NCBI GenBank assembly: GCA_020052615.1
Contig: JAGVOT010000013.1
Location: 1-56,721 of the forward strand
Source: Nitrospirota bacterium
GTDB lineage: Bacteria > Nitrospirota > UBA9217
DNA length: 56,721 bases
Direction: 5' to 3'
Under the pieces are notes generated by a model that saw nothing but the letters and a program-made list of their open reading frames with translations, was not told the origin of the DNA and searched no databases. Position 1 is the first letter of the stretch. Each line of letters begins with the position of its first letter. Made by a program: the position numbers and the translations under genes. Below, one piece after another: positions 5,326 to 48,091 of the stretch.

Positions 5326-5787
5326 GTGTCGGCCTCCCCGGGTGACAAGCTTACAGGCTTGGAGGATACTCTCCAGGCCTTTGCTATTGGTATGCCGGCA
5401 TGACACGCTGTACTTTGTACAGATCGGTCGGGTGTGGTGCCTGACTGGCGACTCGGAGGTGCAAGTTTGCCTTGTGCTATCGATGCCGCAAGGTGTCGAG
5501 ATGGATCGGCAGAAGTCAGCAGAAGCCGTAGCGGCCCCTTAACCAACGGGATGAAGTGCCGAACTGTCGGACTGTCCGAGACCGGATCTCTGCCTGTTCT
5601 GAGTACAAGCTTCGCAAGAGGGCCTGAGCTGGACGTAGCGGACGGAATCCGCGAGGTAAAGCCGGGTGCTTAAAGGACAGGAGGCGACGAGGTCACTGAA
5701 AGAGCGGAAGGACAGGAACCGCCGTATGCGGAACCGTACGACGATGGTGTGGGAGGACGGCGGGGGGCGACCCCGCCTCCTTCCCGA
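5326..5787 (+). mobile_element. ORF-less group II intron (degenerate)
   Basis: This 460-bp non-coding block ends in a recognisable group II intron 3' end. Domain V is GGAACCGCCGTATGCGG..GATGGTGTGGGAGG, followed by a domain VI hairpin (GGCGGGG..CCCCGCC) and a final GAT. Upstream are stretches typical of the same intron type, including GGCAGAAGTCAGCAGAAGCC near 5510. The 5' end is placed at GTGTC (5326) by the GUGYG rule and is approximate. There is no reverse transcriptase gene. Domain V pairing contains at least two apparent mismatches (C-A and A-G), suggesting decay. It sits between the polysaccharide genes and the ABC transporter. Boundaries are uncertain by perhaps 10 bp. Confidence 0.6.
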
Positions 5788-22093: not shown

Positions 22094-23443
22094 TCAGCCG
22101 ATATATTTCCGGACCAGCACCGCCAGTTCGTCGGCGTACCGCGTGATCTCGGTCTCGTCATCGCCCTCGATCATGATCCGGAGCTTGAGCTCGGTGCCTG
22201 AATACCGGATAAGCAGACGTCCGGTGCCTTCAAGCGTCTTTTCGATGCCGGCAATACGCTGCGCGATCTCCGGCAGGGACGCCAGGTCGCGCTTCTCCTT
22301 CACCTTCACGTTCACGAGGACCTGGGGATAGGTGCGCATGCAGGCTGCAAGCGCGGAGAGGGGCTTCCCGTCCTGTTTCATGATCGAGACGATCTGCAGG
22401 GCGGTGATAAGACCGTCGCCGGTGGTGTTATGGTCCAGGAAGATGAGGTGCCCGGACTGTTCTCCCCCCAGGTTGTACCCGCCGTCGAGCATCCGCTCCA
22501 TGACATACCGGTCTCCCACGGCAGCGCGGACCAGGGTGCCGCCGGCCTCCCGGAGAGCGAGTTCGAGGCCGAGGTTGCTCATGACCGTTGCCACAAGGGT
22601 ATTGTGCTTGAGCCTGTTCTGCCGGATCATGTGGAGGGCGCAGATGGCCATGACTGCGTCGCCGTCAACGATCTTTCCGTTCTCGTCGCACAGGATGACG
22701 CGGTCGGCGTCTCCGTCGTAGGCGATACCGATGTGCGCCCGGTTGGCGATCACGGCGCGGGAGATCACCTCGGGATGGAGCGATCCGCATCCCTGGTTGA
22801 TGTTCATCCCGTTCGGCTGATCATAGAGCGAAATGACGTCGGCGCCGAGCTCCAGCAGGACGCGCGGGCCGATCTTGTAGGCGGCGCCGTTCGCCGAGTC
22901 CACCACCACCCGGAGCCCCGTGAGGTCCATGCCGCGAGGGATGGAGGATTTGACAAATTCATTGTATCGACCGATGGCGTCGTCGATCCTGACGGCCTTG
23001 CCGATCTCGGAGGCCGTGGGGCGGATGGCGTCGATGGCGCCCGAGAAGATGAGCTCCTCCATCTTGGCCTCGAGCGCGTCGGGAAGCTTGAACCCGTCAC
23101 GGCCGAAGAACTTGATGCCGTTGTCCTCGTAGGGATTGTGGGAGGCGGAGATGACCACACCTGCGTCGGCCCGCAGGCTCCGGGTCAGGAACGCGATGCC
23201 CGGCGTCGGGACGGGGCCCACGAGCAGCACGTCGATGCCCATGGAACAGAGCCCGCTGGTGAGGGCGCTTTCGATCATGTAGCCGGAGAGGCGCGTGTCC
23301 TTCCCGATCACGACGCGGTGGCGCCTCGAGGAATCACGGAAGATATGTGCCGCCGCCCTCCCGATGCGCATCGCCATCTCCGAGGTCATGGGGTCCTGGT
23401 TGGCGACCCCCCGGACACCATCGGTGCCGAAGAGCTTTCTCAT
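22094..23443 (-). CDS. glmM: Phosphoglucosamine mutase
   Basis: 449 residues, full length. It starts [20 protein letters not shown]. The phosphoserine loop [17 protein letters not shown] has catalytic Ser101, the metal loop is YDGDADRVI, the sugar loop [10 protein letters not shown] and the phosphate-binding loop [13 protein letters not shown]. It converts glucosamine-6-phosphate to glucosamine-1-phosphate for UDP-GlcNAc, feeding peptidoglycan and lipopolysaccharide. AGGAGC precedes the ATG. The start overlaps the cdaR stop by 4 bp. In Gram-positive bacteria CdaA and GlmM proteins interact and GlmM inhibits c-di-AMP synthesis; the tight operon cdaA-cdaR-glmM here suggests the same control. 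Confidence 0.96.
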
Positions 23444-24096
23444 GGGCGCTCCTTTTGAATGCCGATAGTGATATATACGTCCGGCTCGACGACCTTGACC
23501 GGACTGCCGCGGTAGTCGATCCGGGGAGCGACCGTTACAGGCTCCTTCATCCCCTTAATATCGATGGGCATGGTCCGGAGCGCGGTCAGGGTCCCGAGGG
23601 AGCTCAACGGGCCCTCGAGGGTGAGCCTCGGGGGAGAGACGGAAACGCTCACGAGCCGGTATCCCGCCGCCGGTTTCCCGCTCAGGACCGGTCTCAGCCG
23701 GATGGTCCTGCGGACGATCCGGTCAAGCTTTACGGTGATCTCGTAGGGCGCAATATGGGTCACCGTGACCCCTGAGGGCTTCCGGATGTCATCGGGCGAA
23801 ATGCGGATGATGTTCTCGCCTTCCTTAACGAGGGAAAGGTCGATGGCGCCCACCACTTTCTTTCCGGCGGCGATATCGCGGAGGGCACGTTCCTGGCCCT
23901 GGAAACGGGCTTCAACGGCGCCCGGCACGTCTCCCACCACGGCCATTCCCTGAGGAATGTTGCGGAGCTCGAGCGGCACGGTAAGGGACATCTCGGTCTT
24001 GCCTTTCGAAGTGACATAGAACCAGAGGCTCACGGCCAGGAGCAGGGACGCGAGCTTGATGGGCCAGTTTTCGAGGAATATCCTGCGCAGGTCCAT
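23440..24096 (-). CDS. cdaR: CdaR/YbbR-like regulator of diadenylate cyclase
   Basis: 218 residues. An N-terminal transmembrane segment ([20 protein letters not shown]) is followed by two YbbR repeats outside the membrane: the first includes [20 protein letters not shown], and the second runs from about residue 115 and includes [20 protein letters not shown]. Known YbbR/CdaR proteins bind the membrane part of CdaA and modulate c-di-AMP output. It overlaps glmM by 4 bp and sits 1 bp past cdaA, with GGAGGG before its ATG. It is shorter than four-repeat Firmicutes CdaR, as usual for this lineage. Confidence 0.88.
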
Positions 24097-24097
24097 A

Positions 24098-24895
24098 TTA
24101 TGCCCTCCGCTCCTGTTTCTGCCTCGCGAAGATGTCCGAGATCGTCTTCCGGAGCCTTGGAGCGTCCAGATCGGGATCGATCACTCCGTTAATGACCACC
24201 GAGATCTCGCCGGTCTCCTCCGACACCACCACGACCACGGCGTCCGTTTCTTCGGTGAGGCCCACAGCCGCGCGGTGCCGGGTCCCGAGGGTCTTGGCGA
24301 TGTTCGGAGAGAGCGTCAGCGGCAGGAAGCATCCCGCCGAGGTGATGCGGCCGCTGCGGATGATGGTTGCTCCGTCGTGGATGGGCGAATAGGGAAGGAA
24401 AATGCTCGTCAGGATCTCCTTCGATACCCTGGCGTCCAGGTTCGTTCCCATTTCCACGATGGTCGTCAGGTCGGTCTCCCGTTCGAGCACGAGGAGGGCG
24501 CCGATCCGTTTGTTCGCCATGGATACCGACGCCTTGACGATCTCCTCGATGAATTTCGAGCTTTCCACCGGCGACAGTGTCCTGAAAAAGCGGCGCTCGC
24601 CCATCTGGGCCAGGGCGCGGCGGATCTCGGGCTGGAACAGGATGACCGCGGCGATGACGATCTGCGACCAGAAGCTGTGGATCAGCCAGTCGAGCGTGTA
24701 GAATTCCAGGGCCTGCGAAGCAATGAACACAAGGACGATGAGCCCGATTCCCAGAAGCATCTGGAACGCGCGGGTGCCCTTGATGATCAGGAGAAGGCGA
24801 TAGCAGATATAGTAGACCAGGGCTATATCAACGGTATCCTGGAACCACCGGTAATGCGTCAGCGCCTCTCGTATTTCGATGAAGTTATTGAACAT
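24098..24895 (-). CDS. cdaA: Diadenylate cyclase (c-di-AMP synthase)
   Basis: 265 residues. Three N-terminal hydrophobic segments (IALVYYICYRLLLIIKG, FQMLLGIGLIVLVFIASQAL, WSQIVIAAVILFQPEIRRAL) precede a DAC domain with the two catalytic motifs DGA (174-176, in SPIHDGATIIR) and RHR (206-208, in GTRHRAAVGL). It makes c-di-AMP from two ATP. The order cdaA-cdaR-glmM is conserved from Firmicutes. It follows ftsH-folP on the same strand, after a 260-bp gap containing repeats and a recombinase scrap, so it may have its own promoter there. The ribosome site at ATG 24895 is weak. Confidence 0.95.
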   Translation of the reverse strand: MFNNFIEIREALTHYRWFQDTVDIALVYYICYRLLLIIKGTRAFQMLLGIGLIVLVFIASQALEFYTLDWLIHSFWSQIVIAAVILFQPEIRRALAQMGERRFFRTLSPVESSKFIEEIVKASVSMANKRIGALLVLERETDLTTIVEMGTNLDARVSKEILTSIFLPYSPIHDGATIIRSGRITSAGCFLPLTLSPNIAKTLGTRHRAAVGLTEETDAVVVVVSEETGEISVVINGVIDPDLDAPRLRKTISDIFARQKQERRA

Positions 24896-24905
24896 GGATT
24901 CATGA

Positions 24906-24979
24906 AAGTGATTGAGTAATTAGTTATTAAGTTATTGAGGGAGGCAGATGTTCTCTCATAACTCAATCACTAATCACTT
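24906..24979. repeat. Imperfect inverted repeat upstream of cdaA
   Basis: The arm AAGTGATTGAGTAATTAGTT..TTATTGAG is answered by CTCATAACTCAATCACTAATCACTT on the other side of a ~14-bp centre. The 74-bp element starts 10 bp upstream of the cdaA start codon on the minus strand and could form a hairpin in its leader. It is followed by the TAGTGTCCGG end of the recombinase remnant. Confidence 0.45.
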
Positions 24980-25038
24980 GATTACATCAGTAGTGTCCGG
25001 CTGTAATTTTTAATTTTACCGTAAAAGCCTATGCCAGC

Positions 25039-25155
25039 GTGCGTGAAAGCGATGTCCTGTTTGGTTTCGATTCCAAATTTACCAAATATTTGCTCTCATT
25101 AAAATCAGAGGGTTACAGTCGCGAAAGTCGCGTTTTTGCGTTTAAGATTACTTAA
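25039..25155 (+). pseudogene. Remnant of a tyrosine recombinase N-terminus
   Basis: A 38-codon open stretch (GTG 25039 to TAA 25153) reads VRESDVLFGFDSKFTKYLLS then LKSEGYSRESRVFAFKIT. This is like the N-terminal SAM-like core-binding helix pair of integrases (F..YL..LK..GYSR.S). The catalytic domain is absent. A TAGTGTCCGG sequence at about 24991 may be the element's outer end. It ends exactly where the folP stop codon begins on the other strand. Identification rests on a short match and is tentative. Confidence 0.35.
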
Positions 25156-26304
25156 TTACTGTTTTTGCTTCACAACCGCATCGGTCATGCGCGCCACCTT
25201 CGTCATATGTCCCACGTCATGCACCCGGACGATACGGGCGCCGCGCTGGATGCCGAGGGCAACGGTGGCCGCGGAACCTTCGACGCGGTCCCTTGGCTCA
25301 GCGATGTCGAGGACCGTCCCGATGAAGCGCTTTCGCGAAGTTCCGAGGACGATGGGGAAACCCAGGGCGCGGAACTCATCCAGACGGTCCAGGATGGCAA
25401 GGTTGTGTTCCAGGGTCTTCCCGAAACCGATCCCGGGGTCGATCATGATCCTGTTCCGGCCGACGCCCGCTTTCAGGGCAATGGCGGCGCTTTCATCGAG
25501 GTATTCCATGATCTCGCCGATGACATCGCCGTAGACAGGGTTTACCTGCATGTCCCTCGGAGTCCCCTTGATGTGCATGATCACAACTGCGGCAGCGCTG
25601 TCTGCAACCACTTGCGCCATATCAGGCGAGAAGCGGAGGCCGCTGATATCGTTAACGATCGATGCGCCGGCATCAAGGGCCTTTTTTGCCACTGACGACT
25701 TATAGGTGTCGACCGAGATGGGTGCCGCGATCTCGGTCGAAAGCCGTTCTATGATCGGGACGACCCTGCGGAGTTCCTCCGCTTCGGTGAGAGGTGCTGC
25801 GCCGGGCCGCGTGGATTCACCGCCGATGTCAATGATGTCCGCCCCCTGGGAGACCATCTCCCGGGCGTATTCCAATGCCCGCGCAGGGTCGGCATACAGG
25901 CCGCCGTCGGAAAAGGAGTCGGGGGTCACGTTCAGGATCCCCATGATGTGCGTGCGGCTGCCGAGGTCGAGGAGTTTCCCTCTGCAGTCAATCTTATAAT
26001 CCGAGCGCAGATAGTTGTCAAGCAGAGACTCGATCGTTTGCGCAAGACCGGCGGGGATCCGCGGTTCGCGGGCGAGAAGAGGGGAGAGACGCTTCAGCTG
26101 GTCAGGCGTGCCGGTCAGTATGGTCTCGTTGACCGGATCCCCGGAGCGTTCGCGGCATGATAAAGAAATAGGAGCAGGCTGCAAGCCCGCTCCTATCTGT
26201 GGTGTTCGGATATATGTTGCCAGGACGGCCGTCTCGCCCGCAGCGAGCCCTTTCAGGGTTATGGCGAGGGCCCCGTGGCCGGAAATCCGGAGAGCAGGCC
26301 CCAT
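25156..26304 (-). CDS. folP: Dihydropteroate synthase with N-terminal extension
   Basis: 382 residues. The enzyme core begins about residue 115: HIMGILNVTPDSFSDGGLY, DIGGESTRPGA, DTYKSSVAKKALDAGASIVN and IDPGIGFGKT are all present. It condenses 6-hydroxymethyl-dihydropterin pyrophosphate with p-aminobenzoate in folate synthesis. The N-terminal ~110 residues match the extra domain seen in related phyla only loosely. They include IGAGLQPAPIS, encoded by a REP-like palindrome (26168-26196). ATG 26304 has AGGAGGAAGG in front and lies 9 bp after the ftsH stop, so the genes are cotranscribed. Confidence 0.93.
   Translation of the reverse strand: MGPALRISGHGALAITLKGLAAGETAVLATYIRTPQIGAGLQPAPISLSCRERSGDPVNETILTGTPDQLKRLSPLLAREPRIPAGLAQTIESLLDNYLRSDYKIDCRGKLLDLGSRTHIMGILNVTPDSFSDGGLYADPARALEYAREMVSQGADIIDIGGESTRPGAAPLTEAEELRRVVPIIERLSTEIAAPISVDTYKSSVAKKALDAGASIVNDISGLRFSPDMAQVVADSAAAVVIMHIKGTPRDMQVNPVYGDVIGEIMEYLDESAAIALKAGVGRNRIMIDPGIGFGKTLEHNLAILDRLDEFRALGFPIVLGTSRKRFIGTVLDIAEPRDRVEGSAATVALGIQRGARIVRVHDVGHMTKVARMTDAVVKQKQ
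26168..26196. repeat. REP-like palindrome inside folP
   Basis: The 29-bp sequence ATAGGAGCAGGCTGC..GCTCCTAT is a near-perfect inverted repeat (one A/C mismatch per arm). It has the form of dispersed intergenic GGAGC..GCAAGCC..GCTCC palindromes, but here it is read in frame as IGAGLQPAPI of the FolP N-terminal extension. Confidence 0.65.
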
Positions 26305-26313
26305 ACCTTCCTC

Positions 26314-28110
<1,797 letters not shown>

Positions 28111-30572: not shown

Positions 30573-31184
30573 TTACTCTTTGAACCGGGTCTCTTCTTTC
30601 TGTATCTTTTCCAGTTCTTCCCGGCGTGTCTTGCACTCGATGCAGTACCGGGCAAGGGGGTTCACCTCAAGGCGCTTGATGCTGATCTCGCCGCCGCATT
30701 CTTCACAGATGCCGTAGGTGTTGTTCTCCAGCTTCCGGAAGGCATCGGCGATGTCCTTGTACTGCTCATACTTCATTTCGAGCAGGGAATAGTCGATGCC
30801 CTGATCAACGTCCTGGGCCGACTGGTCGGCGCTGTCCATGGCGGAGTCGATCTTCTGTCCGGTCTCTTTGACGAGCTTGCGGCCCATCTGGGCCTCAAGA
30901 CCGCGTACTACATCATTGCGCTTTTTGAGCAGAAGGCCCTTGAGCACGTCCTTCCGCTTTGACACGGCAGCCGGCATCCGCTGAGGGGCCGGAGAGGCGG
31001 CTGCGGCCCTTTTCACTGCTTTCTTCGCGATCTTCTTTGCGGCCTTCTTTGCGGTTTTCTTAACGGTCTTCTTGACCGGCTTTTTCTTCACGGTTTTCTT
31101 TGCGGCGGTACGGACAGTTTTTTTGGCCGTTCTCTTTGCCGCTGATTTTGCAGCCTTTTTCCGGGCTTTCTTTTTTACTGCCAT
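30573..31184 (-). CDS. DksA/TraR-type zinc-finger protein with histone-H1-like tail
   Basis: 203 residues in two parts. Residues 1-65 consist of Lys/Ala/Thr/Val repeats of AAKK and VKKT type, like bacterial histone-H1-like proteins. Residues 75-203 are a DksA-like coiled coil (LLLKKRNDVVRGLEAQMGRK) and a C4 zinc finger: C160, C163, C181, C184 in GICEECGGEISIKRL and ARYCIECKTRREE. DksA relatives bind in the secondary channel of RNA polymerase; the basic tail would add nonspecific DNA affinity. GGAGGAATGAAGG precedes the ATG, and a near-consensus promoter lies at 31278-31306. Confidence 0.88.
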   Translation of the reverse strand: MAVKKKARKKAAKSAAKRTAKKTVRTAAKKTVKKKPVKKTVKKTAKKAAKKIAKKAVKRAAAASPAPQRMPAAVSKRKDVLKGLLLKKRNDVVRGLEAQMGRKLVKETGQKIDSAMDSADQSAQDVDQGIDYSLLEMKYEQYKDIADAFRKLENNTYGICEECGGEISIKRLEVNPLARYCIECKTRREELEKIQKEETRFKE

Positions 31185-31528: not shown

Positions 31529-34500
31529 ATGAAGTACTGTTCTATCATTATTTTACTATTCCTGCTCCTGCCCTTGATCGTCCTGGCAGGCGAGCCATCC
31601 AGGACGGACCTCCGGGAGTACCGGCTTGACGTTTCCTTTGAGGTTCCCCGTTCCAGGATCACAGGGAACCTCAAAGTACCGGTGCGTGCGGGCCAGGAAT
31701 CGGCGTTCAGCATCGGGCACCTTGCCGTGGGCTCCGTATCCCTGAACGGCCGGGACATGAAGTCCGCGGTCAAGGACGGCAGGCTGACGATCAAGCCTCT
31801 CGAGGACGGGATCGCGGAAGTCCGGTACGAGGGAACTTTCAAGGGTGGCGTCATGGAGGGCGACCGGAACTACGGCGTCGTGTCGAGCACCATCGATGAA
31901 CGGGGCATTTCGCTCACCGGGGCCTGGTATCCCCAGCCCGACGGGCCGGCGCGGTGGAAGGTCACGGCGCAGCTGCCGGCGGGATACGAGGCGATATCGG
32001 AGGCCGAGACCATCGCCAGGGAAAAGAAGGGAGAGGGAGTGCTGTTCACCTTCGACTTTCCCCATCCCGTCGACGGGCTTTCCCTGGTCGCCACGGACCG
32101 CTATGAGGTCACCCGGGAGCGCCACGGCACGATCGAGCTCTTCGCGTACTTCTTCAAAGAGGACCGTGAGCTTGCCCGGACCTACCTGCAATATGCAAAG
32201 AACTATTTCGAGCAGTACGAGAAACTGCTCGCTCCCTATCCCTATAAACGGTTCTCCATCGTCGAGAACTTCCTGCCCACCGGCTACTCCATGCCGACCT
32301 TCACCCTGCTGGGGCAGGAAGTGGTGCGTCTCCCGTTCATCGTCGAAACCTCGCTGGGCCACGAGATCCTCCACCAGTGGTTCGGAAATTCGGTCTATGT
32401 TGATTACGACCGCGGCAACTGGTGCGAGGGCCTGACCACCTACCTGTCGGACCATCGCTACGAGGAGCAGAAGGGCAAGGGGGCGGAATACCGCAAGCAG
32501 CTCCTGGTCAATTACGCGGCCTACGTGAACGAGAAGAACGAAACGACGCTCCGTGAGTTCCGAAGCCGGACGGACCTGGCCTCGCGTTCCATCGGCTACG
32601 GCAAGTCCGCCATGGTCTTCCATATGCTCCGGACCCTTACCGGCGACGAGCAGTTCTTCGCGTCGCTGAAGCAGCTTATCGCGGAGAAGAAGTTCCGGCC
32701 GGCCTCGTGGGACGATATCGAGGACGCCTTCGAGAAGCGGTCCGGAAAGGACCTGTCGGCGTTCTTCAAACAGTGGCTCGACGGAAAAGGTCTGCCGGAT
32801 ATTCGCGTGGAGCATGCGTCGGTCCAGAGGAAAAGCGGGAAATTCGAGATAACCATCGAAGTAGTGCGAAAGAACAGCGCCATTCCCCTCGATTTGCCGG
32901 TTGCTGTCTCGTACTTGCGGGGGGGCGAAAAGACGGCCGTAGCGGTCCTCGACGCCGACAAGAAGAGCATTTCGCTCGTGATGGACGAGGAGCCGGTAAC
33001 AGCGGTCATCGATGGAGGGTATGATCTGGCCCGGAAACTGACGGCCGACGAGATGCCGCCGGTGATCGCCCGGCTGCTGGGGGACGAGGCGCCGGTGATC
33101 GTCGCGACGGAGGCGGGAATCACCAGTTACCAGGCTGTCGTTATTGGTTTTGCCAGGCAGGAGGAGGGGCGGACGGAGAGGAAGGGGGAGAAGGGCAAGG
33201 GCCTGACGGACGCCGTTCTCAAGGCGTCAAACCTCGTCGTCCTCGGTGCCGACAACCCCGTGCTTAGCCGGCTGTTCGGAGCGACGGCTGCTCCCGCCGC
33301 GGGGTTCAGCGTCGAGATGCGGAAGAACCCCTGGAATCCCGAAAAGGTCGTGGGAATATTCCATTCGGCATCTGCCGGGGAGGCCGACGCGGCGTTCCCG
33401 AAGATATCCCATTATGGGAAATACAGCAGTCTCGCGTTCGTGAGGGGGAAAAATGTGGACAAGAAGATCGCCCCTTCAGAGAGGGGGATCATCATGGAAC
33501 TCCGGGAGGAACCGCCCGTCGTCGACCTTTCCCTGCTCAGGAGGCTTTCCGATGTCATCGAAAGCGCTGCCGCAAAGAAGATCGTGTACATCGGCGAGTA
33601 TCACGACCGCTTCAGCAACCACGCAGTCCAGATCCAGATGATCCGGGCGCTGCAGGGCAGGAACACCCGGTTCGCAATCGGCATGGAAATGTTCCAGCGG
33701 CCTTTCCAAAAGACCCTTGATGACTATATCAGCGGCGCCATCGATGAGCGGGAGTTCCTGAACCGGTCGGAATATTTTAAGCGCTGGGGCTTCGACTACA
33801 ACCTGTACAAACCGATCCTTGATTTTGCCCGGAAAGAAAGGGTCCCGGTCGTTGCCCTGAACGTGAGAAAAGAGATCACCGAAAAAGTGTCCAGGGAAGG
33901 CATGGACGCGCTCACCGATGAGGAACGGAAGGAGCTTCCGCAGGAGACCGATTTTTCCGACGAGGACTACCGTCATCGCATCCGGCAGATCTTCGACCAG
34001 CACAAGGGCTCGGAATCGAAGAACTTCGATTATTTCCTGCAGGCGCAGGTCCTCTGGGACGAGACCATGGCCGAGTCGATCGATGAGTACTTCAAAAAGA
34101 ACCCTGACCACCAGATGGCGGTGATCGCCGGAGGGGGGCACCTGGCCTATGGCATGGGCATACCGAAGCGGTCCTTCCGGAGGAACGGCCTTTCCTATAC
34201 CATCATCCTGAACGACGGGGATATCGAACCGGACATCGCCGACTTTATCATCTTTCCGCAACCCCTCGACGGCATGACGTCGCCGAAGCTTATGGCCACC
34301 TTCAAAGAGGAGAAGGGGAGGGTGCTCTTCAATGATTTTATCAAGGACAGCCCGGCCAGGGCGGCCGGGATCAGGGCCGACGACCTGCTGGTCTCCCTGG
34401 ACGGGATCGCGGTGAAAGGGATACCGGACATCAAGACGGCTCTTTTTTTCAAGAACAAGGGTGATATAATGAAAATAAGGGTCGCCCGAAAGCGGTTTCT

Positions 34501-34540
34501 TTTAGGAGAGGCGGAGTTGGAGTTCGAGGTGAGGCTGTAG
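31529..34540 (+). CDS. Secreted M1-like peptidase / ChaN-like / PDZ fusion
   Basis: 1003 residues with a signal peptide (IILLFLLLPLIVLAG). Residues ~25-430 are an M1-type metallopeptidase: LGHEILHQWFGN (HExxH) and NWCEGLTTYL supply the zinc ligands, while the GAMEN exopeptidase motif is replaced by TGYSMPTFTLLG. A ~230-residue region with no recognised motif follows. Residues ~665-900 are a ChaN-like (DUF399) domain: KIVYIGEYHDRFSNHAVQ, AIGMEMFQRPFQ, MAVIAGGGHLAYGMGIP. In ChaN this fold binds heme. Residues ~920-1003 are a PDZ domain (DSPARAAGIRADDLLVSLDG). The product is likely periplasmic. The combination suggests peptide or heme-protein turnover at the envelope; its substrate is unknown. 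Confidence 0.88.
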   Translation: MKYCSIIILLFLLLPLIVLAGEPSRTDLREYRLDVSFEVPRSRITGNLKVPVRAGQESAFSIGHLAVGSVSLNGRDMKSAVKDGRLTIKPLEDGIAEVRYEGTFKGGVMEGDRNYGVVSSTIDERGISLTGAWYPQPDGPARWKVTAQLPAGYEAISEAETIAREKKGEGVLFTFDFPHPVDGLSLVATDRYEVTRERHGTIELFAYFFKEDRELARTYLQYAKNYFEQYEKLLAPYPYKRFSIVENFLPTGYSMPTFTLLGQEVVRLPFIVETSLGHEILHQWFGNSVYVDYDRGNWCEGLTTYLSDHRYEEQKGKGAEYRKQLLVNYAAYVNEKNETTLREFRSRTDLASRSIGYGKSAMVFHMLRTLTGDEQFFASLKQLIAEKKFRPASWDDIEDAFEKRSGKDLSAFFKQWLDGKGLPDIRVEHASVQRKSGKFEITIEVVRKNSAIPLDLPVAVSYLRGGEKTAVAVLDADKKSISLVMDEEPVTAVIDGGYDLARKLTADEMPPVIARLLGDEAPVIVATEAGITSYQAVVIGFARQEEGRTERKGEKGKGLTDAVLKASNLVVLGADNPVLSRLFGATAAPAAGFSVEMRKNPWNPEKVVGIFHSASAGEADAAFPKISHYGKYSSLAFVRGKNVDKKIAPSERGIIMELREEPPVVDLSLLRRLSDVIESAAAKKIVYIGEYHDRFSNHAVQIQMIRALQGRNTRFAIGMEMFQRPFQKTLDDYISGAIDEREFLNRSEYFKRWGFDYNLYKPILDFARKERVPVVALNVRKEITEKVSREGMDALTDEERKELPQETDFSDEDYRHRIRQIFDQHKGSESKNFDYFLQAQVLWDETMAESIDEYFKKNPDHQMAVIAGGGHLAYGMGIPKRSFRRNGLSYTIILNDGDIEPDIADFIIFPQPLDGMTSPKLMATFKEEKGRVLFNDFIKDSPARAAGIRADDLLVSLDGIAVKGIPDIKTALFFKNKGDIMKIRVARKRFLLGEAELEFEVRL

Positions 34541-39242: not shown

Positions 39243-41162
39243 CTATCCCTTGCTCATTTTCCCGCCAAACAACTCCACGATCTTCTTTACCAACGCAGGC
39301 AGCGACGGGTCCCGTGCTCCCATGACAAGAATGCAGTCTTCCGGCCTCGCATCGGCCTGCAGTCTTGCCAGCAGGTCATCGCGATCCCTCACTGCTTCAG
39401 CCTTAAATGTCACTGCGCCCAAGTCGTCGATGATATCGTCTGATGAAATGTTCTTTTGCGCAGTGCCTCCGGCATAATAGATCGGCAGGAGATAGAGCGA
39501 GTCATCCGGCTGGAACGTGGCTTTGAAGGTCGCGATATATTCATCCTTCAAGAACCGCGTCGGGGCGAATCCGTGGGGCTGGTAGACGGCCAGAATGCGC
39601 CCCGACAGGCCCCGGCTGGCGCGGACAGCGGCCGCTATCTTTGCCGGATTGTGCGCAAAATCGTCAACCACATGGACATTCCGCTTCGTCGAGGTCACCT
39701 GAAAGCGCCGCGCCACGCCCTCATACAACGTTACCGCATCGGCAAGCGCTGTGGGCTCGCATCCGAAATGCTCGCACACGCAGAGCGCCGCGGACAGGTT
39801 CTCAAGGTTGTGTTCGCCCGGGAGCGGCAGATGATATTCAACGCCGTCCTTCACCAGTTTGACCGAGGTCGGAAGAAGCTCTGCCCGGTCCGGCCGCCAC
39901 GAGCCCGAACCATTCCGGCCGAAGCGCACGGTCGCGGGAAGGGAAGCGAGGACCGGATCGTCGGCATTGGAAGCCGTCCAGGGAGTGTTTGACGCAAGCG
40001 TTTCGAAGAGCGCTTTTATCTCGTCGATGCTTTTGTGGTCCCTTGAAACATTCAGGAAGACCGCGGCCTCGGGACGATATTTGACCAGCGTTCCGTCGCT
40101 TTCATCGGCCTCGACGACCAGCAGATCGGAACCTCCTCCGTAGGCATTGCCGATGAGCCCCTGCTTTTCAAGCCTGCGCAGGCCCGCGCCGCTCAGGAGC
40201 GAGGGCGATTGTCCGCATGCGGTCAGGAACTCGAATATCATCGCGGTCACCGTCGACTTTCCGCTCGTGCCGGCGACGGCGATGGTCCTTTTCGTCCCGA
40301 TGACAGCTGCAAGCAGGTCGGAGCGATGGATGACGGGAATTCCCCGGTCACGGGCAGCGGCGATGTCGGGATTTGAGTCCTCTATCGCCGTCGAGACGCA
40401 GACGACGTCAGTGTCCTCACCGATGCCCGAACCGTCCTGCGGAACGACGGCGCACCCCAGCCCTTCGAGCGATCGCCCGATGGCGGCGGTATCGTCGCTC
40501 CCGTGAAAGCGGTCGGAACCCGATACCGTGATGCCCTGAAAGCGCAGGTATTGCGCAAGCGCGCTCATGCCGCTACCGAAGATGCCGGTGAAATGGACGC
40601 TGCGGCAGGGGCGTTCGCCGACGACGACGGGGGGAGGGTCGATGTAGACGAGCGTGCCTTCCTTCACCGTGTCAAATAAACGGATGACGTCGAGATTGCG
40701 CATGCAGATGCAGCCGTGGGACAAGGGAGAGCCGATGAGGTCCTCCCGGCCCGTGCCGTGGATATAGATGTAACGCTCATAGGAATCCACGCTGCCGCTC
40801 TTGTTGATCCCCTCCTCAAGGCCTTCGAGCCGCAGGATGCGCGTCAGGATCAGGTTGTCCCCGGTCAGGCTGTGGTCCCAGTCTTCGCCCGTGTCCTCGC
40901 GGTCCCTGAAGACACGGCCGGGAGGCGCGTCGGCCCCGAACTTCTCCCTGATCCGGTGAAGACCGAGCGGCGTCTTGAGGGAGTTCTCCCGGTTGCCATG
41001 GCCGAAGCGGGAGGTCGATGCGTCGTAGCGTTCCACGATGGCGCCCTTCGCGCAGACGAAGAGTGCCTGTTCTTCGATGGACACGACGAGATAAAGCCCT
41101 TCGGGGTCGGTAAGAATCGGGGCCAGTTTATTATGAATGCGATGTAATCGAGATGATTCCAT
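39243..41162 (-). CDS. L,D-transpeptidase (YkuD) fused to a MurC/Mpl-like Mur ligase
   Basis: 639 residues. Residues ~20-178 are a YkuD domain: LYLVVSIEEQALFVCAKGAI, TPLGLHRI, YIYIHGTGRED, then LIGSPLSHGCICMRNLDVIR with His149 and catalytic Cys151. Residues ~188-639 are a Mur ligase: VHFTGIFGSGMSALAQYL, P-loop AVAGTSGKSTVTA (298-304), EADESDG (351-357), GEHNLENLSAAL, and DDFAHNPAKIAAAV, closest to Mpl (DDFAHHP). No signal peptide or transmembrane helix is visible, so the transpeptidase half should be cytoplasmic, unlike ordinary exported YkuD enzymes. This suggests murein-peptide recycling or editing of precursors before export. It is monocistronic. Confidence 0.9.
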   Translation of the reverse strand: MESSRLHRIHNKLAPILTDPEGLYLVVSIEEQALFVCAKGAIVERYDASTSRFGHGNRENSLKTPLGLHRIREKFGADAPPGRVFRDREDTGEDWDHSLTGDNLILTRILRLEGLEEGINKSGSVDSYERYIYIHGTGREDLIGSPLSHGCICMRNLDVIRLFDTVKEGTLVYIDPPPVVVGERPCRSVHFTGIFGSGMSALAQYLRFQGITVSGSDRFHGSDDTAAIGRSLEGLGCAVVPQDGSGIGEDTDVVCVSTAIEDSNPDIAAARDRGIPVIHRSDLLAAVIGTKRTIAVAGTSGKSTVTAMIFEFLTACGQSPSLLSGAGLRRLEKQGLIGNAYGGGSDLLVVEADESDGTLVKYRPEAAVFLNVSRDHKSIDEIKALFETLASNTPWTASNADDPVLASLPATVRFGRNGSGSWRPDRAELLPTSVKLVKDGVEYHLPLPGEHNLENLSAALCVCEHFGCEPTALADAVTLYEGVARRFQVTSTKRNVHVVDDFAHNPAKIAAAVRASRGLSGRILAVYQPHGFAPTRFLKDEYIATFKATFQPDDSLYLLPIYYAGGTAQKNISSDDIIDDLGAVTFKAEAVRDRDDLLARLQADARPEDCILVMGARDPSLPALVKKIVELFGGKMSKG

Positions 41163-47996: not shown

Positions 47997-48091
47997 GACT
48001 GGCTGTGTCGGCTGGCGCCGGCTGCAGGCTTCAATCCTGCAGGACTGCCGTGCATGGCATGTCATCGGTTCGATTCCGAAGTCAGTCTCCA
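47997..48091 (+). tRNA. selC: tRNA-Sec(UCA)
   Basis: 95 nt. The 8-bp acceptor stem is GACTGGCT/AGTCAGTC (one G-U). GT is at positions 8-9. The 6-bp D stem GTCGGC/GCCGGC has a 4-nt loop TGGC. The 6-bp anticodon stem TGCAGG/CCTGCA has loop CTTCAAT, anticodon TCA at 48031-48033. A long variable arm GACTGCC..GGCA-T-GTC (7 bp, one bulge) follows. The T arm TCGG-TTCGATT-CCGA has 4 bp (or 5 with an A-A mismatch). Discriminator T and encoded CCA complete it. The long acceptor, 6-bp D stem and long variable arm fit only selenocysteine tRNA. Confidence 0.88.

Follow-up and report, generated by a model that had tools for sequence, protein, structure and literature searches.

The fused gene and its surroundings

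We analysed a stretch of 56,721 nucleotides (the window, positions 1 to 56,721 of contig JAGVOT010000013.1, forward strand) from a Nitrospirota bacterium of the lineage UBA9217 (assembly GCA_020052615.1; 3.99 Mb, 135 contigs, 97.8% complete). On its reverse strand lies a gene for a protein in which a YkuD domain is followed by a Mur ligase:

39243..41162, reverse strand: fused gene, 639 aa, with ATG at 41162 and TAG at 39245-39243 (open reading frame and orthologues)
40641..41093, reverse strand: YkuD domain, putative ElsL-like L,D-carboxypeptidase, residues 24-174 (Pfam, ElsL profile, conservation)
40602..40640, reverse strand: linker between the halves, about residues 175-187 (matches the overlap or junction of the separate Fibrobacterota genes)
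39312..40598, reverse strand: MurC/Mpl-like ligase of three domains, residues 189-617 (Pfam, motifs, alignment)

The gene is a single frame of 639 codons with no internal stop, and we found four Pfam domains in it, all over their cut-offs: YkuD (24-174, E 5.7e-20), Mur_ligase (189-289), Mur_ligase_M (296-463) and Mur_ligase_C (485-617). The YkuD half carries the motif SHGCICMRN with Cys151, which together with His135 is the predicted catalytic pair. The ligase half carries GIFGSGM, the P-loop GTSGKST (298-304), EADESDG (351-357), DDFAHNP (500-506) and QPHGFAPTR (528-536), and AlphaFold2 modelled the whole chain with a pLDDT of 89 and a pTM of 0.86. Hence, the YkuD-Mur ligase fusion with intact catalytic motifs that a first-pass annotation had described is confirmed as one open reading frame.

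That annotation had also read the protein as cytoplasmic and free of an export signal, which we judged from the hydropathy of the N-terminus and the upstream frame. No stretch of the N-terminus is strongly hydrophobic (the highest Kyte-Doolittle value over 15 residues is 1.5, compared with 2.4 for the exported YkuD protein of the same genome), and the 29 extra in-frame codons upstream of the ATG add no such stretch. A hidden upstream signal is ruled out by this upstream hydropathy and by the relative L011, in which a stop codon stands just before the equivalent Met. The signal peptide or anchor of exported L,D-transpeptidases is thus lacking; the only other YkuD protein of the genome (L002) has a signal-like N-terminus and no ElsL match. 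Hence, of the two YkuD enzymes encoded in this genome, one appears to be exported and the other cytoplasmic, and a cytoplasmic location of the fused protein fits both the missing signal and the ElsL type of the YkuD half.

The genes adjoining the fused gene (RtcA, DUF554) gave no functional lead, and Rfam finds no riboswitch or structured RNA upstream of it. Elsewhere in the window, a 1002-aa protein (31529-34537, forward strand) combines peptidase M1, ChaN/Tiki haem-binding and PDZ domains, an unusual mix, and a DksA/TraR zinc-finger protein (30576-31184, reverse strand) has a long lysine/alanine-rich N-terminal tail of histone-like make-up. A folP-cdaA-ybbR-phosphoglucomutase (glmM-type) cluster with ftsH (22097-28110, reverse strand) is an ordinary c-di-AMP cyclase neighbourhood of a common kind. 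At 5477-5559 (forward strand), Rfam reports a group II intron D1-D4-1 match of 44.7 bits, perhaps an intron remnant; it also reports a selenocysteine tRNA gene (tRNA-Sec) at 47997-48087 (forward strand), so the organism may use selenocysteine.

Conservation, gene pairing and origin

The fusion is present in 9 of 13 related Nitrospirota assemblies (eight whole, one cut by a contig end), and these orthologues are 77-85% identical. The four family genomes without it are 74-89% (G006, G012) and 94-95% complete (G003, G010). Across the nine fused relatives SHGCICMRN, GTSGKST, EADESDG and DDFAHNP are almost invariant; one relative has SQGC and still keeps Cys151 and His135. Neither residue varies across 58 YkuD sequences (12 from fusions, 26 from pairs or contig ends, 20 lone), and Lys302 of the P-loop is likewise kept. 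Since the fusion is intact and conserved in independent assemblies, it is neither an assembly error, such as a frameshift at the junction, nor a product of decay, and two of the weak points foreseen in the first-pass annotation, a broken junction in other assemblies and inactive YkuD residues in homologues, are cleared.

Scanning GTDB genomes with the YkuD half returned 44 loci. Outside named Nitrospirota, the closest are a fused protein of 'Deltaproteobacteria bacterium UBA2221' (68%) and YkuD proteins of Fibrobacterota/Chitinispirillia whose genes adjoin that of a ligase 49-59% identical to that of the window. We found such a YkuD protein in 39 of 168 genomes of the phylum Fibrobacterota. 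We retrieved 30 Fibrobacterota loci: in 27 the ligase gene immediately follows the ykuD gene, in two the genes are fused (L118, 643 aa; L131, 672 aa), and one breaks off at a contig end. Hence, the same domain order, whose wider occurrence had been proposed as a check, recurs beyond the family.

The two genes overlap in 23 of the 27 pairs, by about 17 nt and in the +1 frame (L120-L147). The likely start of the ligase in these pairs is TTG (once ATG), 14-20 nt before the end of the ykuD stop codon, and a Shine-Dalgarno-like site lies inside ykuD, within the codons of a conserved E-G-T motif. As nearly all pairs share the +1 frame, we considered a programmed +1 frameshift that would make a fused protein; inspection by eye showed no shared slip site, and with a Shine-Dalgarno-like site and a start codon inside ykuD, re-initiation is the simpler explanation. 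This strikingly conserved overlap looks like a pattern of translational coupling. The lone, distant ElsL-like genes of Gammaproteobacteria, Bacteroidota and Verrucomicrobiota have no Mur ligase within 4 kb on either side. The existence of the overlapping gene pair in another phylum strongly suggests that trimmer and ligase work together.

In trees from quick searches, whose root is uncertain, the 12 fused ligases group together as a single clade (SH-aLRT 99 and 100), and so do the 12 fused YkuD halves (SH-aLRT 92); both clades fall within the spread of the Fibrobacterota pairs. Hence, the fusion has a single origin, and the simplest reading would be one fusion event in or near Fibrobacterota followed by transfer to the Nitrospirota family.

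Affinities of the two halves

The best curated match of the YkuD half is the ElsL model NF040925, with an E-value of 4e-38 and 131 bits across 150 residues, far above the roughly 22 bits reached with models of exported L,D-transpeptidases. The score is under the NF040925 cut-off of 270 bits, and standalone ElsL-like proteins of Gammaproteobacteria, Verrucomicrobiota and Fibrobacterota also score just 119-152 bits. Hence, this cut-off looks narrow. The half has the catalytic His and the SHGC Cys of the ElsL type and, as noted, no secretion signal. ElsL of Acinetobacter baumannii is a cytosolic YkuD enzyme and a selective L,D-carboxypeptidase, which cuts M4 to M3 and is inactive on M5; it acts ahead of Mpl, and without it Mpl reuses tetrapeptide, which leads to aberrant lipid II (PMC8649774). 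A cytoplasmic YkuD trimmer ahead of Mpl is therefore an established idea, and the proposal of the first-pass annotation that the fused protein marks a new step in murein recycling does not stand.

Turning to the ligase half, its best curated match is murC (TIGR01082) at 280 bits, under the cut-off of 335.1, and it reaches 108 bits against Mpl (TIGR01081), for which the cut-off is 388.7. A separate true MurC (565 bits) is encoded elsewhere in the genome, and no further Mpl-like protein was found there. An alignment against MurC, Mpl, MurD and MurE of E. coli showed that three groups of ligases (the fused proteins, the paired ones and the standalone ones of Nitrospirota) share the signatures GTSGKST, D[FY]AHNP and QPHGxxPTR, which are in neither MurC nor Mpl. 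The signature motifs of Mpl include (S/T)AFFDKRSK and GI(C/G)GTFM (PMC3060825); in the alignment, AFFDKRSK, GTFM and EPRSNT are absent from the fused proteins and from their paired and standalone relatives. Structure matches of the model place the MurC structures 1p31 and 1p3d first (TM by target 0.8) and Mpl 3hn7 next (0.75).

MurC of H. influenzae holds L-Ala with Arg377 and Arg380 (PMC3060825). The equivalents are Gly531 and Pro534 in all fused proteins, and Gly/Pro replaces the arginine pair throughout the ligase clade; within the rest of the L-Ala-binding set (H. influenzae numbering), Tyr346 becomes Phe502, and His376 and His348 are kept. Hence, what had been called an Mpl/MurC-like ligase is indeed a MurC-like three-domain ligase, but by sequence it is neither MurC nor Mpl and is an unnamed third clade. 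That the L-Ala site is lost while the genome has a separate MurC points to an acceptor other than L-Ala, and a recycled peptide would be the natural candidate. With the Mpl motifs missing and 108 bits against a cut-off of 389, tripeptide is a putative acceptor.

Standalone ligases of the same clade occur in many other Nitrospirota (L018-L037), are 36-41% identical and have EACESD in place of EADESD. We found no YkuD gene within 1.5 kb of these lone ligases and, by eye, no shared neighbour.

Proposed role in peptidoglycan recycling

We consider it likely, with a probability of about 0.7, that the fused protein is a cytoplasmic bifunctional enzyme of peptidoglycan recycling, which trims tetrapeptide and ligates tripeptide to UDP-MurNAc. 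The ElsL-like YkuD domain (His135/Cys151) would cleave off the terminal D-Ala of murein tetrapeptide that has been imported, the ligase half would then attach the resulting tripeptide to UDP-MurNAc, and tethering of the two would favour reuse of tripeptide over tetrapeptide and so avoid dead-end lipid II. This model predicts the two activities, which peptide is accepted, which step comes first, and channelling. MurF cannot extend a UDP-MurNAc-tetrapeptide product, and murein peptide ligases take tetrapeptide slowly; hence, coupling a trimmer to the ligase makes sense. For example, PaMpl uses tripeptide about 44-fold faster than tetrapeptide (260 vs 5.9 per min), and Mpl enzymes take tetra- and pentapeptide at a low rate (PMC3060825). 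Trimming of the peptide before ligation to UDP-MurNAc, which the first-pass annotation had envisaged, fits the ElsL-type half, the gene pairing, the absence of LdcA and the separate MurC, although the trimming step itself is the one already known from ElsL.

None of the 14 family genomes, the source genome included, encodes an S66 LdcA, and among 10 genomes with the fusion or the pair we found two partial, weak matches only. Of 46 other Nitrospirota tested, 42 lack it as well. Hence, the suggestion that the fused protein replaces Mpl and LdcA is compatible with the gene content (no LdcA, no further Mpl-like protein), but LdcA absence is weakly diagnostic in this phylum and weak as proof of replacement.

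An AmpG-like permease is encoded in 11 of the 14 family genomes, including the source genome. Nine of the family genomes reach a completeness of at least 90%; seven of them encode the fusion together with AmpG, and the other two encode neither (Fisher p 0.028, ignoring kinship). One genus has both states (G004 with fusion and AmpG, G010 with neither). AmpG is weakly associated with the pair in Fibrobacterota (13/39 vs 2/20, p 0.047), and the fused Fibrobacterota genomes G407 and G408 have no AmpG match. A NagZ-type GH3 enzyme is present in the source genome and in every family genome at least 90% complete. Only one of the 14 family genomes has an AmpD-type amidase (Amidase_2, PF01510), although most have AmpG-like and NagZ-type proteins. 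This leaves a gap in the classical pathway and speaks against a textbook E. coli-like route; recycling without AmpD would need another amidase or the import of free peptides.

The main rival explanation, which we regard as unlikely, reverses the order of the steps: the ligase would attach tetrapeptide (or a longer peptide), and the YkuD half would then trim UDP-MurNAc-tetrapeptide to the tripeptide form as a post-ligation proof-reader, so that the protein would still serve recycling. It has the same genetics as trimming first, and E. coli LdcA accepts UDP-MurNAc-tetrapeptide. The low-rate use of tetra- and pentapeptide by Mpl agrees with it too, but PaMpl prefers tripeptide, which speaks for trimming first (PMC3060825).

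It is very improbable that the ligase half is a second MurC, which adds L-Ala and was fused by chance to a carboxypeptidase. Although murC is its best curated match (280 bits) and MurC structures are its best fold match (TM 0.8), it scores under the cut-off of 335, a full MurC is encoded elsewhere, the arginine pair is Gly/Pro clade-wide, and the conserved pairing of ElsL-like proteins with the ligase argues against a chance fusion. Least probable of all is exchange of the terminal D-amino acid, another suggestion of the first-pass annotation, in which the YkuD half would be a cytoplasmic transpeptidase that swaps D-Ala for another D-amino acid and yields edited precursors: YkuD enzymes are generally capable of this and residue 153 beside the catalytic Cys differs from that of lone ElsL, but ElsL, the nearest homologue to have been studied, acts selectively as an L,D-carboxypeptidase (PMC8649774), and none of the nearest genes was seen to encode a D-amino-acid racemase; exchange found no support.

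As far as the literature searched shows, recycling L,D-carboxypeptidases and murein peptide ligases have been reported as separate enzymes only, and we found no published YkuD-Mur ligase fusion in that literature, which included few subscription papers. Neither the fused architecture nor the coupled gene pair nor the unnamed clade of ligases seems to have been described before; their parts are related to known families. More tentatively, at slightly less than even odds, the ligases may constitute a third, undescribed class of UDP-MurNAc peptide ligase in Nitrospirota and Fibrobacterota, which with an ElsL-like trimmer, as coupled pair or fusion, would give a recycling step in one protein or one complex without LdcA and, in UBA9217-type Nitrospirota, without AmpD. 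The fusion and the conserved overlapping pair show a link between the two steps and bear on how cells keep tetrapeptide out of the ligase, and the fusion would allow channelling to be measured within one protein. In addition, an unnamed clade of MurC-like ligases gains a testable function, and recycling would be extended to poorly studied phyla.

Compared with ElsL, the YkuD half shares a YkuD fold without a signal, a full-length match, the catalytic His and Cys, and a predicted role in recycling at the step directly before a UDP-MurNAc peptide ligase. In contrast, ElsL is a single-domain protein and its model is matched at 131 bits against a cut-off of 270, and residue 153 is mostly Cys in the coupled (fused or paired) proteins and Arg in lone ElsL-like proteins. 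The Fibrobacterota pair has the same two proteins in the same order (about 47-65% and 44-61% identical to the fusion) but as two genes, which usually overlap by about 17 nt in the +1 frame.

Like Mpl (TIGR01081; PDB 3hn7), the ligase half is a three-domain Mur ligase with DDFAH and a second MurC-like ligase beside a true MurC; unlike Mpl, it lacks AFFDKRSK, GTFM and EPRSNT, is 20% identical to 3hn7 and scores 108 bits against 389. It is closest to MurC (TIGR01082; PDB 1p3d) in sequence and fold, with 29% identity, and differs from it in the Gly/Pro that replaces Arg377/Arg380, in the P-loop (GTSGKST rather than GTHGKTT) and in a score under the MurC cut-off.
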